A stretch of 48,004 bases of DNA from Longimicrobiales bacterium (GTDB taxonomy: Bacteria; Gemmatimonadota; Gemmatimonadetes; Longimicrobiales; Gaopeijiaceae): the NCBI GenBank assembly GCA_028278645.1, contig JANQDZ010000075.1, positions 1 through 48,004 on the forward strand, written 5' to 3'. The position numbers were made by a program, and so were the translations under genes. Shown here piece by piece: positions 8,787-16,324 of this stretch. Within the stretch, counting starts at the first letter, position 1; the number at the start of each line of letters is the position of its first letter. The notes under the pieces were generated by a model that worked only from the letters and a program-made list of their open reading frames with translations, was not told the origin of the DNA and searched no databases.

Positions 8787-8905
8787 CTGTCCACCGAAGG
8801 AATCGGTTGATCAGCGGCGGGCTCTTTGATCTGAAAGGGACTTCCGGCCAAAGAGTTTCGTGGCTCTGGGTCATTGCATCCTTTCACCCGAACCGGAGTG
8901 TTGCC

Positions 8906-11767
8906 ATGAGATCCCGTACCACAGTTCGAAACGGGATTGGGGCGCTGGCAAGCGTCCTACTCCTCTTCCTTTTCACCTTCCCATTGATGGCGCAGAGCAC
9001 CGGCCAGGTTTCCGGTCGCATCATCAACGGGGCAACCGGTGAGCCCCTCGGGGGCGCCCAGGTGGTGATCCAGGGGACCAGTATTGGTACCATGGCGAAC
9101 CCCCAGGGCCGCTATCTGATTCTCAACGTCCCGGTGGGGACCCACACCGTCGAAGTCACCCGCCTCGGGTACGGCTATCAATCCCTGGAGATCACCGTGG
9201 GTGCCGGGGAGACGGCCGTCGCAGACTTCGAGCTCCGGACGGAGGCCATCGCCCTTGACGAGGTGGTGGTCACAGGAACGGCCGGAAGTGCTCGGAGGCG
9301 GGAAATCGGGAACACTATCGGTGTCATCAACGCCGATGACATCCAAGCCACCCCCATCACCTCGGCCACCGACGTCCTTCAGGGCCGAACGGCAGGTCTG
9401 ACCGTCCGTCCCATCAGTGGGACGCCCGGTGCCGGATCCGAGATCATGCTGCGTGGGGTAAACACGCTGGGAGGCCCCGGCGGCAACCGGCCCCTTATCT
9501 ATGTGGACGGTGTGCGCCTTGAGAACGGGCTCCACCAGAACCCTGACGAAGCCAATACTCGAACCACCATCTTCGACGATCTCGACCCCGCCAGCATCGA
9601 GCGAATCGAGGTCATCAAGGGCGCAGCGGCCACCACCCTCTACGGTACCGAGGCGGCCGGTGGCGTGATCCAGGTCTTCACCAAGGGCGGCGGTGGTGGT
9701 GCTCCCCAGTGGACGGCCACCATCAACCAGGGAATCTCCCATATTGGCCACATCGGGCCCAAGGCGGATTCCACCGGCCTAAACATGAATGACTGCTCCG
9801 CGGATGCAGGCTGCCCCGCCAGTGGATCCTGGCTGAAGAACGGCCACATCCAGGAGTACGAGCTGTCGGTCCAGGGGGGCACCAACGTTCCCTGGTACGT
9901 CTCAGGCTCACTGTCCTCCCAGGACGGGAACCTGGATCCCCAAAACGCCCTGAACACCAGCCTCCGGGCCAACTTCAGGTTTGAGCCCCTGGACAACCTC
10001 AATATCCGCATGAGCAACATGTTCACGCGCCGGGACATCCTCTTTGTCCCGCAGGGGAACAACGCCGAAGGATTGATGCTCAACGTCATGCGTGGTCCCA
10101 AGGACTACACCCCCAATGACGTGGGCGACGCGGCCGTTTTGGAGATGGACCTCAGGCAGCAGATCGACCACTTCATCACCGGTCTGAACATCACCTGGAC
10201 GCCCACGGCCAGCCTCTCTCAACGTCTGAACGTCGGGATGGACTACTCGACCTCCGAGTACACGGAGGAGCGTCCCTGGGGATTCTACTCCAAGCCAGTG
10301 GGTAACCGGGAGAACGACCTGGCCCTGGACCGGAACATCACCGTCGACTACGCCGGAACGTATGACACGACCCTGCCCTTCTTGAACCTGGCTTCCACCA
10401 CGTCCTGGGGGGCCCAGTACTACGACGAGTTTAGCTGGGGCCTGAACGCCTTCGGCGAAACCTTCTCCGGACCGGGCGACAAGCTGATCACCTCGGCCGT
10501 GGACCTGGACGTATTCGGCGAAGGCTGGCTCCGGGTAGCCAGCGGCGGGTTCTTCCTCCAGGAGCAGTTCGGCTGGAACGATCGATTCTTCCTGACCCTG
10601 GGCGCCCGCTGGGACGGCTTCTCCACTTTCGGTGAGGGCTTTGGATTGGCCTTCTACCCGAAAGTCTCCGGCGCCTACACCATCTCCGACCATAACTTCT
10701 GGCCGAGCTGGTGGGAAACCATGAAACTTCGGTTCGCGGTGGGTGAGTCCGGACGGGCTCCCGGCCCCTTCGCCTCCAAACGGACCTGGGGTTCCACCTC
10801 CGGGGACACGAGGCAGGCAGCGGTCATCCTCTCCGAGCTGGGTAATGAAGAAATCGGACCCGAGCGCACGCTGGAGATCGAGGGAGGATTCGAGGCCTCC
10901 ATGTTAGAGGGCCGATTCAGCATCGACTTCACTTACTTCGACCAGAGCACCACGGACGCTCTGCTTCGCCTTGACCGGCCGGCCTCCATCGGTACGGAGG
11001 AAGCCATCCTCACGAACCTGGGTGAGGTCGTGAACTCCGGCCTCGAGTTCTCGGCAAACGCCAGCGTGTATACGAGTTCGGCTTTCTCCTGGGACGTTGG
11101 CGGAAACTACTATCACGGGGAAAACAAGATCGTATCCCTGGGGCCGGTCACCGACGAGCGACTCCAGGACCGTCCGGTGGACGCCATCTTCCGTGACCGT
11201 ATCACAAATCCCGACGAGATGGGCGCGAAGCCGACGTTCGAGAACGATTACTTTGGCCCGGCCCGGCCCACCACCACATGGGGAATCAATACCAGGATGA
11301 CGTTCTTCCGTCGCCTGACCCTGGAAGGCCTGGGCGAGTTCCAGGGCGGCCACGTTCGGGAAGCCGGTGGCGTACGGCAGAACGTCCGCCGGGAGCAGTG
11401 GGTCCCCTGTCAAGGAGTCATGGACGCGGTGAATGCCGGCGATTACTCCATGTATACCGCGAATGACCTGGCCACGTGCAGCCACAAGCACGCCAACTAC
11501 GGTAACTGGACCGATTTTGCCGACTTCTTCCGACTCCGCTCCGTGTCCCTCAGCTACCGGGTGCCGGAAAACTGGCTCCCGGGGAACCTCACCGGCATGA
11601 CCCTTCGGGCCCAGGGGCGGAACCTCTGGCACACGACTGACTGGCCGGGGATCGATCCGGAAGGGAACGCCTACGGTGCCGGGGCCGGATGGTCCTGGAG
11701 TGCACGGGAGTATTACAACCTGCCCATCCCACAGGTGTTCATGTTGAGCGCCACCGTGAACTTCTAA
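8906..11767 (+). CDS. SusC/RagA-family TonB-dependent outer-membrane receptor
   Basis: The start at 8906 has GGAG eight bases upstream and gives a 953-residue protein with a signal peptide ending LMAQ. An N-terminal carboxypeptidase-regulatory-like domain (SGRIINGATGEPLGGAQV, about 35-110) is followed by the TonB-box-like DEVVVTGTAG, a plug domain (about 125-240, with VIKGAAATTLYGTEAAGGVI) and a beta-barrel ending in a hydrophobic aromatic strand (VFMLSATVNF). Such receptors take up oligosaccharides, peptides or siderophores with energy from TonB. It forms a classic pair with the SusD gene 16 bases downstream. The substrate cannot be read from sequence; no glycan-degrading genes are adjacent. 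Confidence 0.95.
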   Translation: MRSRTTVRNGIGALASVLLLFLFTFPLMAQSTGQVSGRIINGATGEPLGGAQVVIQGTSIGTMANPQGRYLILNVPVGTHTVEVTRLGYGYQSLEITVGAGETAVADFELRTEAIALDEVVVTGTAGSARRREIGNTIGVINADDIQATPITSATDVLQGRTAGLTVRPISGTPGAGSEIMLRGVNTLGGPGGNRPLIYVDGVRLENGLHQNPDEANTRTTIFDDLDPASIERIEVIKGAAATTLYGTEAAGGVIQVFTKGGGGGAPQWTATINQGISHIGHIGPKADSTGLNMNDCSADAGCPASGSWLKNGHIQEYELSVQGGTNVPWYVSGSLSSQDGNLDPQNALNTSLRANFRFEPLDNLNIRMSNMFTRRDILFVPQGNNAEGLMLNVMRGPKDYTPNDVGDAAVLEMDLRQQIDHFITGLNITWTPTASLSQRLNVGMDYSTSEYTEERPWGFYSKPVGNRENDLALDRNITVDYAGTYDTTLPFLNLASTTSWGAQYYDEFSWGLNAFGETFSGPGDKLITSAVDLDVFGEGWLRVASGGFFLQEQFGWNDRFFLTLGARWDGFSTFGEGFGLAFYPKVSGAYTISDHNFWPSWWETMKLRFAVGESGRAPGPFASKRTWGSTSGDTRQAAVILSELGNEEIGPERTLEIEGGFEASMLEGRFSIDFTYFDQSTTDALLRLDRPASIGTEEAILTNLGEVVNSGLEFSANASVYTSSAFSWDVGGNYYHGENKIVSLGPVTDERLQDRPVDAIFRDRITNPDEMGAKPTFENDYFGPARPTTTWGINTRMTFFRRLTLEGLGEFQGGHVREAGGVRQNVRREQWVPCQGVMDAVNAGDYSMYTANDLATCSHKHANYGNWTDFADFFRLRSVSLSYRVPENWLPGNLTGMTLRAQGRNLWHTTDWPGIDPEGNAYGAGAGWSWSAREYYNLPIPQVFMLSATVNF

Positions 11768-11783: not shown

Positions 11784-13091
11784 ATGATGATGAAAATCGC
11801 ATGCATGATCCGCCGCGGGATTTGGGTGCCCCTGACGGTACTCTTCTTTCTCACGGCAGGATGCGGAGACCTGTTCGACATCGAGAACCCGGGTGAGATC
11901 CTGGACTCGGACCTGAACGACGCCGAACTGATTCCGGTGCTCATTACCGGACTTTCTTCCGACGTTTCGGACTTCGTCGACGACTACGCCTTTAACGTGG
12001 CCCGCATCGGCGACGAGCTTGCCGGATCCGGGAGCTATGGGAGCACCGGTTACTTCCGTACCGGAATCGCCGAGCAGGACAATGTGAACGGCACGTGGGA
12101 ACAATCCCACGAGGCTCGCTGGATGGCCGAGCTCCACATCGCCCGTATCGAGACCCTCCTTGAGGGGGGGGCGTTCCAGAACAGCGACTATGTCAGCCGG
12201 GCTTATCTCTTGATGGGCCTTGCCCATATGTCCCTGGGCGAAAACTACTGTTTTGTGGTCTACTCCGAGCCGGATAACTACGGCGGCTTGCAGCCCAAGA
12301 CGGTAGCCTTCGATCGAGCGGTGGCAGCGTACACCAACGCTCTGGCCTACGGCACCGGCGAGTTCCATACCGCTGCCCGCGCGGGGCTGGCTGCTGCTTA
12401 CGCGGCCCTGGGGGACTGGAGCCAAGCGGTAACAAACGCGAAGCTCGTCCCGGACGACTTCGTCATGCACACTTACTACGACGTGGTCGATGATGAGAAC
12501 GTAGTCTGGGTTGAGACCCACGAGCGTCCTGAAATGTCGGCCATCAATACCTATGCAGGCACCTTTGATCCGCCCGATCCCCGGGCGCCGTTCAACAAAT
12601 GCGACGTCACGGGAAGCTGCTCCCATGACACCGGCGCAGACGGTGTGACGGTCCACTGGCGACAGGACAAGTACGTTGATGACGGTGACGACATCGTGTC
12701 CTGGTCAGGGAAGGAAGCACGCCTCATCGAGGCCGAGGCAGCCCTGGTGGGCGGAAACCTCGGAGAGTTTACAACCCAGATCAACGCGGTGCGGGCCCTT
12801 TATGACCTGCCGCCCATTACTCAACCCGCAACCGCCGGGTCCCTGGAATTCCCCAATGCATACGACGACGGATGGTCCATCCTCGACGGGGAACGCCAAC
12901 TGACCTTGTGGGTTGAGGGCCGGAGGCTCTGGGACCTGCACCGGTGGGACCACCCGTTCCTGAACGGTGGAACCATCGTATGGCCCGGCGAAACCCGACG
13001 GGATTCCTGTATGCCGGTCCCGGACGGGGAGTGCGCTGTCAATCCGAACTTCACCTGTGCAGAAGCGGCTGCAGGCACCAACAGCGGCTGA
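11784..13091 (+). CDS. SusD/RagB-family surface lipoprotein
   Basis: The 435-residue protein has a lipoprotein signal with lipobox LTAGC (Cys27), then the FDIENPGEILD opening that is characteristic of SusD-like proteins in this group, helical TPR-like segments, and a late ERQLTLWVEGRRLWDLHRW motif typical of the SusD C-terminal domain. It caps the SusC barrel and binds substrate. Three consecutive ATG codons (11784, 11787, 11790) follow GGAG at 11778-11781; spacing favours the second or third. The gene is followed by a strong terminator, so the transcription unit is SusC-SusD. Confidence 0.93.
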   Translation: MMMKIACMIRRGIWVPLTVLFFLTAGCGDLFDIENPGEILDSDLNDAELIPVLITGLSSDVSDFVDDYAFNVARIGDELAGSGSYGSTGYFRTGIAEQDNVNGTWEQSHEARWMAELHIARIETLLEGGAFQNSDYVSRAYLLMGLAHMSLGENYCFVVYSEPDNYGGLQPKTVAFDRAVAAYTNALAYGTGEFHTAARAGLAAAYAALGDWSQAVTNAKLVPDDFVMHTYYDVVDDENVVWVETHERPEMSAINTYAGTFDPPDPRAPFNKCDVTGSCSHDTGADGVTVHWRQDKYVDDGDDIVSWSGKEARLIEAEAALVGGNLGEFTTQINAVRALYDLPPITQPATAGSLEFPNAYDDGWSILDGERQLTLWVEGRRLWDLHRWDHPFLNGGTIVWPGETRRDSCMPVPDGECAVNPNFTCAEAAAGTNSG

Positions 13092-13122: not shown

Positions 13123-13159
13123 GCCCCCACCGCATGTTGCGGTGGGGGCAGCAGTTTTT
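13123..13159 (+). terminator. Rho-independent terminator after SusCD
   Basis: A 12-bp perfect stem (GCCCCCACCGCA at 13123-13134 with its complement at 13138-13149), loop TGT, then a run of five T at 13155-13159 after a five-base gap. It lies 31 bases after the SusD stop. Confidence 0.85.
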
Positions 13160-13309: not shown

Positions 13310-13690
13310 ATGAAAAAGTCCATAGCGCTTCTGCCCCTGACGTTGTTTCTCCTAGGATGCGCCGCCGGGGGCGGGGGGTCCGGACCCAGCCGGTCCTCGA
13401 ACACTCTCCTGGCAGAAGAAATCGCGGAGTTTCCTTCGGTCACAGCCTACGAGGCCGTCGAACAGGCCCGTCCACGTTGGCTGCACATTCGGTCGGCACC
13501 CACCACCGGCAGCCCAATGCCCACACCCCCTGTGGTTTACCTGGACGGCCTGAGGGTGGGTGACCTGATGGAGCTGCGGCGGATACGAGCGAACGTGGTA
13601 GAGAAGATGCAGTTTTTGAGCGCCTCGGACGCCACAAACCGGTTCGGGACGAACCACGCCGGGGGAGCCATCCTAGTCACTACCCGGTGA
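13310..13690 (+). CDS. Small lipoprotein resembling an isolated TonB-receptor plug segment
   Basis: The start at 13310 (MKKSIALL) has TTGGAG six bases upstream. The 126-residue product has a lipobox LLGC (Cys17), a Gly/Ser linker, and a C-terminal half reading VVYLDGLRVGDLMELRRI, then EKMQFLSASDATNRFG and GGAILVTTR. That order (Val-Asp-Gly, an Ile/Val-Glu strand, a Ser-Ala-x-x-x-x-x-Gly turn, Gly-Gly-x-Ile-x-Val-Thr-Thr) matches the distal plug motif of SusC-type receptors, as in VIKGAAATTLYG of the neighbouring SusC. No barrel is present. Function unknown; it might interact with TonB systems or represent a repurposed plug. It lies after the SusCD terminator and is probably transcribed separately. 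Confidence 0.75.
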   Translation: MKKSIALLPLTLFLLGCAAGGGGSGPSRSSNTLLAEEIAEFPSVTAYEAVEQARPRWLHIRSAPTTGSPMPTPPVVYLDGLRVGDLMELRRIRANVVEKMQFLSASDATNRFGTNHAGGAILVTTR

Positions 13691-13696
13691 CCTAGG

Positions 13697-16324
13697 TCAG
13701 TCTCTCCGACTCTCGTAGCGGGTGATGGCGTTGATCCAGTTCTGTTCCAAAGGATCGACGGCTAGAGCCCGGTTGTACTCTTCGATGGCCCGGTCCCGTT
13801 CTCCCAGGACCAGATAGACATCTCCGTCTAGGCTGTGGCTGACGGCATCGTATCGCCTCTCCATGGCGTCCCGAACGTAGGCCATGTCCTCCTCGCTATC
13901 GGCCAGGTTCACGAGCCACGGAAGCACGCTCTCACGGGCTTCTTTAAAGTCCAGAACGTTCCGCAGCCGATACATGTCGGCCACGAAGTAGGCCATAGCA
14001 GGAGAAAACTCCAGATACGGGTTGTTGTCGGTGTTGTCGTCTATGTTCCCCACGTACTCCGCCAACGTCTCCTCCCCCATCAGGAACCCACTCAGGAAGG
14101 CCAATGGGTCAGGAACATTCACATAAGTCAGTTCTTCTCTGATTCTCTCGTCCCGGAACTTCTCCCTAACAGCTTGGAAGTCGATCTCCAATTCCTCCAT
14201 GGTGCCAATCAACACCGCGTTTTGTCTGAGGGGTGAGAACCAAAGGGTAGAGTGGGGGAAGGCCGTCATGAACGTCTTCGCCGTCATCTTCACCTCGAGA
14301 TCGGAAAGGAGGTGATGGGGGATCCACTGCACCACGATCCCGTCCTCGGAGACCCTCTCCTTCAGGAGTTCATAGAAGTCCAAGGCGTACAGGCTCCCGT
14401 TCCCCGCCATCTTAGGCGACGTGGCGTCGATGGAGATGACGTCGTACTCCTTATCCGTGATAAGGGCGTAGTTCCTCCCGTCGTTCAGGATCAGGTTGTA
14501 TTTGGGTTGATCCAAAACCCCGTGGTTGACCTCCGGGAACCAGTGGGCTGCTTTGGGGACAGCCGGGACCAGCTCGATGCAGTCCACGAACTCCACCTCG
14601 TGTTGAAGTACGCCCCACGAGGTTCCGCCGGCTCCGAAGCCGATAATGGCCACCCTCGGGTTCTCGGCTCGGCTCAGGAGTAAGGGGAAATGCGCCAGAG
14701 CCTTCTGGGCGTCCTGGTACTCGGGCGGTTCTCCTGCAACCGGGAACCCATTGATGCTGATGAGACGATCTCCGTATATGTCCCTGTAGACCTTTACCGT
14801 GGCCCCGATGCCCTCGTCGTAATAAAGGACCTCATCGGTCTCGAGACCCTCGTAGTACGAGGTGAGGGTCATTCCTCCGCCAAGAAGAACGGGGGATCCA
14901 ACGGCCAGGAAAGCCAGTGACCCCGCAGCGGCCAAACCCGTCCTGGTGCCTGCCTTCATTCCGGGCTCGGCGAGTACGAGGGCCACACCGATGGCCGCGT
15001 TGATGGCGGCCACGAGCAGGATCCCCTTCTGCAGCCCGACGGTAGGGATCAGGACGAACCCAGCCAGCAGAGATCCAAAAACACCTCCAATGGTGTTGAT
15101 GGCGTATACGTTCCCGAGGCTCGTCCCGACCTTGGCCACTTCCCGTGTATAGATCTTGGCAGCCAGGGGAAAGGCCATACCCATGAGGACGGTGGGGATG
15201 AGCATGACGCTGAGGCTGTTCAGAAACCGCACGCCCATCCACTTCCAGTTCAGCATGGAGTCCAAGGACACGTCTGACAGGCGTTCAAAAACCGGGGTGG
15301 AGTTGTTGATGATGGGTATGGCGAGGATGGCCGAAACGGCGATGAGCACTTCGATGATCCCCAACCACCCCAGCAACCGCTTCCCTCTATCGATGAAGCG
15401 GGCAATGAGGATGCTTCCGATCCCTATTCCCAAAAGAAAAGCAGTGAGGATCGTCGTAAAAGCATGGGTCGAGTTGTCGAGATAAAAAACCAGGGCCCGC
15501 GTCCAAAAGACCTCGAATGCCAGAGCGCAGAACCCAGATATGCCGATTGCCCACAGAGCCAGCCGTAGGACCCTGGGCGAGAGGACCGACTCCGGGACGG
15601 CGTCCGGGCCTAGGTCAGCCCGGCTTTCAGCTTGGCCCATCGCCTGGTCTTCCCCGCGGTATTCAGAACCGCGCACCGAACTCCGCGCCAACAGAAAAAC
15701 CACCAGGGCAATCAGCAAGTTCACGAAACCCGCCGCGTAAGCAGCCTCCCTCACCCCCAAAATCAGGATCAGGAAGAACCCGGCGGAAAGGGTGCCCACA
15801 ACCGCCCCAAGGGTGTTCAGCGCATACAGCTGCCCGACATGCCAGCCAAGCCTCTCCTTCTTGGTCGCAAAGAACTTGACGATGACGGGGAGGGTGCCGC
15901 CCATGAGGGTGGCGGGTAAGACCAACACCACGAAGGCCAACGCGAACCGGACGATGCTGATGCCGTAGAAGCCGACATCGAACTGCTGGGAGATACCCAC
16001 ATAGGCCCAGGTGACGATTCCGAAAAGGACCGGCATGAGGAAGGCGAAGGCGCTGATCCCGGCCTCAAGAAGGGCGTAAACTCGAAGGGGGGGCTTCCCC
16101 TTGTCGATTACCCTGCCAAAAACAAACCCGCCTAATGCCAGACCGGTGAAGAACGAAGCCAGGATGGTGCTGGTGGCGAATGCGGTGGCCCCGAAGACCA
16201 GGGTGAGCATTCGCATCCAAACGACCTCGTATACCAAGGCACAGCCGCCGGACAGAAAAAAGAGGACAAGGACGGTCAGCCGCACGAGCTTCTCGGGGAA
16301 TGGAGCCTTGTTGTCTTCAGACAT
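13697..16324 (-). CDS. Membrane-fused spermidine/spermine synthase-like protein with C-terminal TPR
   Basis: This 875-residue protein has two parts. Residues about 1-490 are hydrophobic with at least a dozen predicted membrane helices arranged like an MFS-type transporter repeat (VYEVVWMRMLTLVFG near the start is typical). Residues about 550-760 form a polyamine-synthase-like Rossmann domain: GFGAGGTSWG near 560, CIELVP, NDGRNYAL near 614 and ISIDATSP near 632. The canonical catalytic Asp of aminopropyltransferases is in the DATSP position. A single TPR-like unit closes the protein. Membrane SpeE-like proteins of this type are widespread and mostly uncharacterised; true polyamine synthesis is not established. 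It converges with the plug-like lipoprotein, six bases apart. Confidence 0.85.
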   Translation of the reverse strand: MSEDNKAPFPEKLVRLTVLVLFFLSGGCALVYEVVWMRMLTLVFGATAFATSTILASFFTGLALGGFVFGRVIDKGKPPLRVYALLEAGISAFAFLMPVLFGIVTWAYVGISQQFDVGFYGISIVRFALAFVVLVLPATLMGGTLPVIVKFFATKKERLGWHVGQLYALNTLGAVVGTLSAGFFLILILGVREAAYAAGFVNLLIALVVFLLARSSVRGSEYRGEDQAMGQAESRADLGPDAVPESVLSPRVLRLALWAIGISGFCALAFEVFWTRALVFYLDNSTHAFTTILTAFLLGIGIGSILIARFIDRGKRLLGWLGIIEVLIAVSAILAIPIINNSTPVFERLSDVSLDSMLNWKWMGVRFLNSLSVMLIPTVLMGMAFPLAAKIYTREVAKVGTSLGNVYAINTIGGVFGSLLAGFVLIPTVGLQKGILLVAAINAAIGVALVLAEPGMKAGTRTGLAAAGSLAFLAVGSPVLLGGGMTLTSYYEGLETDEVLYYDEGIGATVKVYRDIYGDRLISINGFPVAGEPPEYQDAQKALAHFPLLLSRAENPRVAIIGFGAGGTSWGVLQHEVEFVDCIELVPAVPKAAHWFPEVNHGVLDQPKYNLILNDGRNYALITDKEYDVISIDATSPKMAGNGSLYALDFYELLKERVSEDGIVVQWIPHHLLSDLEVKMTAKTFMTAFPHSTLWFSPLRQNAVLIGTMEELEIDFQAVREKFRDERIREELTYVNVPDPLAFLSGFLMGEETLAEYVGNIDDNTDNNPYLEFSPAMAYFVADMYRLRNVLDFKEARESVLPWLVNLADSEEDMAYVRDAMERRYDAVSHSLDGDVYLVLGERDRAIEEYNRALAVDPLEQNWINAITRYESRRD

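Follow-up and report, generated by a model that had tools for sequence, protein, structure and literature searches.

A conserved family of predicted lipoproteins with a barrel-less TonB-receptor plug, associated with SusCD loci in Gemmatimonadota

Plugs are known as the inner part of TonB-dependent channels, and in BtuB the hatch is linked covalently to a barrel of 22 strands. SusD, the surface glycan-binding proteins and BtuG are surface-facing lids and binders. Plugs have reportedly also been handled apart from their barrels: the FhuA 'in vivo reconstitution' (Braun et al. 2003) is said to have used a plug produced as a polypeptide of its own, and Letoffe et al. 2005 are said to have dealt with isolated HasR plug and barrel. 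Here we describe a gene for a predicted lipoprotein that has the plug and no barrel.

The window (i.e., the whole stretch of DNA that was analyzed) is one entire contig of 48,004 bp from a genome of 4.9 Mb that is 95.6% complete. A plug-like lipoprotein gene had been noticed in its first-pass annotation, and this observation was confirmed: the gene is a genuine open reading frame with an ATG start that comes after the genes for SusC and SusD, both of which scored above the Pfam cut-off (Table 1). The plug domain ends in GGAILVTTR, with the stop codon straight after it. Among the 76 distinct domain sequences of the family profile, which were retained from 103 full-length profile matches, the lipobox column holds Cys in 65 rows, a gap in 10 and Ser in 1. 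By sequence, the protein thus carries the signal peptide II and lipobox of a bacterial lipoprotein, and Cys17 is probably lipidated. The earlier description of an isolated plug with no barrel was borne out, as was the lipobox at Cys17, by the position of the stop codon, the LLGC17 motif and the profile alignment by hhalign.

Table 1. Coordinates of the plug lipoprotein gene, its parts and its SusCD neighbors in the window.
Feature	Position	Strand	Basis and remarks
TonB-dependent receptor of SusC type, plug and barrel both present, TonB-box-like stretch LDEVVVTG	8807-11767	+	Pfam/NCBIfam; start codon putative
SusD-type lipoprotein	11784-13091	+	Pfam match above cut-off
Terminator-like hairpin in the gap between the SusD and plug genes	13123-13149	+	12 pairs and T run; folding z -4.8
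Barrel-less plug lipoprotein gene	13310-13690	+	126 aa; homology, profile comparison, model
Signal peptide and lipobox LLGC, predicted lipidated Cys17 (codon 13358-13360)	13310-13360	+	Sequence
Gly/Ser/Arg-rich linker with no acidic residues or TonB box	13361-13399	+	Sequence
Predicted compact plug domain, residues 31-126	13400-13687	+	hhalign, model, VIA alignment

Pfam and NCBIfam returned nothing above cut-off for the plug lipoprotein, so a protein of this kind is easily missed by annotation. PF07715 gave no match at E-values up to 1 (gathering score 23.9 bits), and a paralogue (L002) scored 14 bits, below the gathering score. The NCBIfam matches were weak ones to SusC models, the best of which covered residues 59-126 at an E-value of 0.0022, far under the curated cut-off. 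A Pfam match to DUF6457 (E 0.027) was discarded, as it sits on the signal peptide and linker.

To compare the family with receptors, its profile was aligned by hhalign to a set of 28 receptor plugs, mostly of SusC type, in which the window SusC is present twice (29 rows). The two profiles matched over residues 9-126 with a probability of 98.9% and an E-value of 2.5e-16, compared to probabilities of 0.1-0.4% for ten column-shuffled control profiles. The plug homology of the lipoprotein is therefore beyond chance. When a 9-sequence profile was searched against the PDB with hmmsearch, the BtuB hatch was the top match (E 0.011) and collinear, with residues 30-125 on BtuB 26-131; RagA followed at an E-value of 0.9, and two non-plug UTP20 chains (E 0.32) fell between BtuB and RagA.

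An AlphaFold2 model built from four sequences had a pTM of 0.66 and pLDDT values of 85-95 by block from residue 31, with residues 61-70 at 49; the mean pLDDT of the five models was 77, 76, 66, 44 and 39, such that two were poor. Of the best 50 of 84 Foldseek matches (E up to 10), 49 were TonB-dependent receptors, at modest E-values (best 2.6e-3 for RagA, none below 0.001). Upon re-examination of Foldseek's own matches by VIA, all 50 of those listed were TonB-dependent receptors, and the best match was a SusC with a Z score of 7.7 (below 8) and an rmsd of 2.8 over 91 aligned residues. Structure prediction, the check suggested with the first-pass annotation, thus returned a plug and not an unrelated fold in the model, Foldseek and VIA. 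That annotation had placed the plug similarity in the last 60 residues; the motifs it quoted are present, but the similarity extends further, as the alignment covers residues 9-126 and the structural matches begin at about residue 29. Taken together, the lipoprotein is, as far as sequence comparison and modeling indicate, one compact TonB-receptor plug over approximately residues 29-126 that is homologous across the domain. Set against the window SusC in the hhalign alignment, it has two segments missing: one of about 14 residues around the RG motif, the other of about 12 residues that would follow the YLDG strand. These absent segments may be ligand-facing turns; in FhuA, the ligand contacts apical turns of the plug according to a passage of PMC11658791.

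Orthologues of the plug lipoprotein were found in three Gemmatimonadetes metagenome-assembled genomes at 62, 60 and 55% identity. The order SusC, SusD, lipoprotein and convergent spermine-synthase-like gene is conserved in L018 and L020, and the SusD-lipoprotein order is kept in L019, the contig of which begins within SusD. The dN/dS ratio (Nei-Gojobori) was 0.25-0.33 in five of six pairs; in the remaining pair, synonymous sites were saturated. This comparison revealed apparent purifying selection on the lipoprotein gene, with its function kept. Paralogues in the same genome match the lipoprotein at E-values of 5e-15 to 1e-7, whereas the plug of the adjoining SusC reaches just 0.16. A C-terminal beta barrel was detected neither in the lipoprotein nor in any homologue frame that was read. 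Thus, homologues that all carry a barrel, a case raised with the first-pass annotation, were not what was found, and the dN/dS ratios, kept lipobox and orthologues argue that the lone plug is not a truncated gene or pseudogene. Downstream in the window, at 13697-16324 on the minus strand, lies a gene whose 875-aa product matched spermine-synthase, MFS-like and TPR models in Pfam; this spermine-synthase-like gene and the plug gene converge in the window and likewise in L018 and L020.

The spread of the family was surveyed in 298 Gemmatimonadota genomes from a larger group, with at most 14 candidates scored per genome. A match at an E-value up to 1e-3 was detected in 253 of the 298 genomes and a strong match (best E < 1e-9) in 213, by hand count, all in the class of the window; the stricter threshold was used for this count because receptor-sized frames reach about 4e-7. 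Nine family members with E-values below 1e-10 were found in the source genome itself. In ten near-complete genomes, 38 of 85 matches, with E-values no higher than 6e-10, were retained; these include one truncated duplicate, and the 47 dropped had E-values above 1e-7, many of them partial and in receptor-sized frames. Separately, a broken plug lipoprotein duplicate was observed next to an intact copy at L099:7801-8082, in surroundings with apparent repeated small lipoprotein genes (by eye).

At least 17 of the 38 members were within 5 kb of SusC or SusD, among the SusC/SusD matches listed for the ten genomes. By contrast, random placement with true contig sizes gave a mean of 1.6 and a maximum of 9, with 17 never reached in 20000 draws (an earlier placement with rounded contig sizes gave a mean of 1.7). 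All 17 linked members were located 3' of SusC, 11 on the same strand. In the source genome, five of seven linked members were instead 5' of SusC: that of C103 and one of C94 were 3', and the other C94 member, the C34 pair and the C25 pair were 5', such that the C94 SusCD pair is flanked by family members on both sides. The protein 3' of SusC in C25 (L017) is weakly plug-like (E 0.012, no Pfam match), and no family member was found at the SusCD loci of C73 and C79 in this genome. The remaining 21 of 38 members were away from SusC and SusD, among the matches listed, and, together with the non-Sus neighborhood of their own that several unlinked members share, this indicates that SusC is not the sole partner. 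By eye, the SusCD-unlinked members of L100, L102, L104, L105 and L106 adjoin an M20-type peptidase-like gene, and those of L100, L104 and L105 fall in one clade of a quick tree.

This tree, built from 36 members of which 26 were linked, 8 unlinked and 2 unlabeled, had just 5 of 33 inner branches well supported; it required four changes of the linkage label compared to 7.3 when the labels were shuffled. Distances between SusC proteins correlated with those between lipoproteins at 21 of 23 loci (r 0.73, p 1e-4), two loci lacking a family row that bore their name; when close SusC pairs were removed, the correlation was lower (r 0.26, p 0.009, 15 loci). Shared genome ancestry contributes part of this correlation. 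Overall, the free-standing plug domains form a conserved family, most members of which have a lipobox, that is old in Gemmatimonadota, is repeatedly coupled to SusCD loci and is tied to them beyond chance.

The gene had also been described as lying directly after a SusCD operon. Its position is as stated, but a terminator-like hairpin separates it from SusD, and co-transcription with SusCD is therefore doubtful. A scan for such hairpins found two overlapping sites compared to 0.9 (sd 1.0) in shuffled sequence, and the count is thus weak evidence alone. The GC-rich hairpin that separates the plug gene from SusD is kept in L018, L019 and L020, and its T run is present in the window, L019 and L020 and absent in L018. 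This arrangement suggests that the plug lipoprotein gene may be expressed separately from, or less than, SusCD.

With regard to sorting, no acidic residue is found next to Cys17 (CAAGGGGSGPSRSS). The ten positions from +2 to +11 hold a mean of 0.48 acidic residues in 65 plug lipoproteins, with none in 41 of the 65, compared to a mean of 2.4 in 12 SusD lipoproteins, these being the SusD proteins matched by a lipobox regular expression and including four orthologues. In Bacteroidota, acidic residues after the Cys direct lipoproteins to the surface, according to a section of PMC5080379. If this rule applies, SusD would be exported and the plug lipoprotein would stay inside. The plug lipoprotein probably faces the periplasm by this analogy, although the Bacteroidota rule may not hold in Gemmatimonadota.

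Supply of a plug in trans to a plugless barrel was considered and is not supported. No plugless barrel was found among the 17 barrel frames detected by Pfam in the source genome: 16 were paired with a plug frame through their contig and the length of the frame, and the remaining one is interrupted by the end of its contig. This Pfam list is incomplete, as two SusC frames, of 1030 aa at C79 and of 1092 aa at C25, had no barrel match.

We tentatively favor, with slightly less than even confidence, an outer membrane lipoprotein with a minimal plug, devoid of barrel and TonB box, that faces the periplasm and acts on its partner SusC. The lipoprotein would most likely remain at the outer membrane on its periplasmic side, where the lipid anchor and a flexible Gly/Ser linker would tether the plug. 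The plug surface may then dock on the periplasmic mouth of the partner SusC, or on the SusC plug, and could thereby tune how the SusCD channel is gated, assembled or kept from leaking. Physical contact with SusC and an effect on gating are what we infer from the plug homology, selection, SusCD linkage, 3' placement, distance correlation, sorting, synteny and the plugs that accompany the detected barrels, which support an action on SusC. Points against it are the 21 of 38 unlinked members, the 5' placement in the source genome, the empty C73 and C79 loci, the hairpin and the modest Foldseek and VIA scores. The isolated FepA plug also counts against it, as it behaves as unfolded according to a passage of PMC11658791, which makes the stability of a free plug worth testing.

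The main rival, which we consider unlikely on balance, is that the plug fold is a general periplasmic module for interaction (binding) or sensing with varied partners, such that adjacency to SusCD would reflect co-regulation or relay of substrate status and not gating. The members away from the SusC/SusD matches listed are consistent with such a module, as are the plugs in other architectures. L090:4424-6172, from one genome, has a lipoprotein plug and TPR repeats in one frame (TPR by Pfam). L094 has a CarboxypepD_reg domain followed by two tandem family domains (tested), and L093 and L095 are similar by eye, which makes three further genomes. In L004 and L008 (G000:C25), which adjoin one another upstream of SusC and are divergent from it, a Gly-rich membrane-like N-terminus replaces the lipobox and is followed by the family plug domain; L004 has a weak Gly-zipper match. 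A C85 protein (L133, G000:C85:69595-69741) appears by eye to be an M56/BlaR1-type peptidase-like membrane protein with a C-terminal plug half. Against a general module stand the linkage to SusCD far beyond chance and the correlated distances of SusC and lipoprotein.

Barrel-less plugs were also examined by use of PF07715, which detected 43 plugs in the source genome: 25 in frames of at least 712 aa, 16 of these with a barrel confirmed by Pfam, and 18 in frames of at most 444 aa, none of which is interrupted by the end of a contig. When the nine family members, or ten if the weak L017 is counted, are added to these 18, barrel-less plug frames number 27-28 compared to 25 of receptor size. By eye, the 18 short frames include four lipoprotein-like proteins with a full plug and one with a half plug, 11 with a carboxypeptidase-regulatory-like domain and a plug (Pfam-confirmed in the one tested), one M56-like membrane peptidase with a plug, and one half plug with a C-terminal extension. 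L129, L130, L132, L134 and L136-L138 are examples, and short plug frames are present in four other genomes too.

An assembly factor that folds or holds the SusC plug or barrel at insertion, outside the working transporter, is improbable. The plug-like shape, lipobox and SusCD neighbor would suit such a factor, and members with no SusCD neighbor could act in trans for other TonB-dependent receptors; presence at some SusCD loci only, with C79 and C73 devoid of a family member, argues against it.

Competition for TonB is less probable still. TonB grasps receptors through the TonB box, according to a passage of PMC11658791, and the first-pass annotation had suggested that a free plug could bind TonB, compete with receptors or serve as a periplasmic adaptor. 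The plug fold and probable periplasmic position would allow a free plug to bind TonB against the receptors, but no TonB box was seen by eye between Cys17 and the plug, whereas SusC proteins show one. A crude regular expression for the TonB box, run over unequal spans of about 28 aa in the family and 80 aa in receptors, matched 4 of 76 family rows, all within the first plug strand or helix. It also matched 23 of 28 receptors, with six of those matches falling on an earlier strand; in these six, and in the five receptors with no match, inspection by eye shows a TonB-box-like stretch. With neither a TonB box nor acidic residues after the Cys, binding of TonB is unlikely and binding by way of a TonB box is not supported; competition with receptors and an adaptor role are possible. 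Finally, a remnant of a truncated SusC or an artefact of annotation, for which the plug homology to SusC and the adjoining SusC gene might speak, can be set aside given the preserved signal peptide and lipobox, a dN/dS ratio of about 0.3, the existing orthologues, the strong family matches found in 213 of the 298 genomes surveyed, and a sequence far closer to its paralogues than to the neighboring SusC plug.

No description of a free plug lipoprotein family was found among the open-licence papers listed. A plasmid search with the plug lipoprotein returned 23 records, each with coverage below 80% of the query, and the best 10 of the 23 were unannotated or TonB-dependent receptors. When the full-plug lipoprotein paralogue L010 was used, the annotated records among the best 40 of 178 were nearly all receptors, with no named lone-plug relative. 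Our results suggest a third, periplasm-facing component at some SusCD loci outside Bacteroidota, and this small, defined family lends itself to genetics and pull-downs. It is a possible, if doubtful, extension that tethered free plugs are class-wide trans-acting parts that gate, tune or wire SusCD transporters and envelope sensors, the plug being a general periplasmic interaction module. If this were true, the plug would not be only a channel stopper, and cells would keep as many barrel-less as barrelled plugs.

Compared to known systems, the lipoprotein shares domain-wide homology, predicted fold and the C-terminal GGAI/GGVI strand with the SusC/RagA plug (PF07715; N-terminal part of TIGR04056). 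It differs in being a lipoprotein with a lipobox, with neither barrel nor TonB box, and with a shortened plug that falls under Pfam detection. The hatch of BtuB, the E. coli vitamin B12 receptor, is its best PDB sequence match, at an E-value of 0.011 only. SusD, surface glycan-binding proteins and BtuG are likewise lipoproteins encoded at TonB-dependent transporter loci, but the lipoprotein described here has a predicted plug fold and no acidic residues after the Cys. The separate plugs of FhuA and HasR were reportedly laboratory constructs, whereas conserved, lipid-anchored free plugs beside SusCD would provide a natural system for what a plug does alone.
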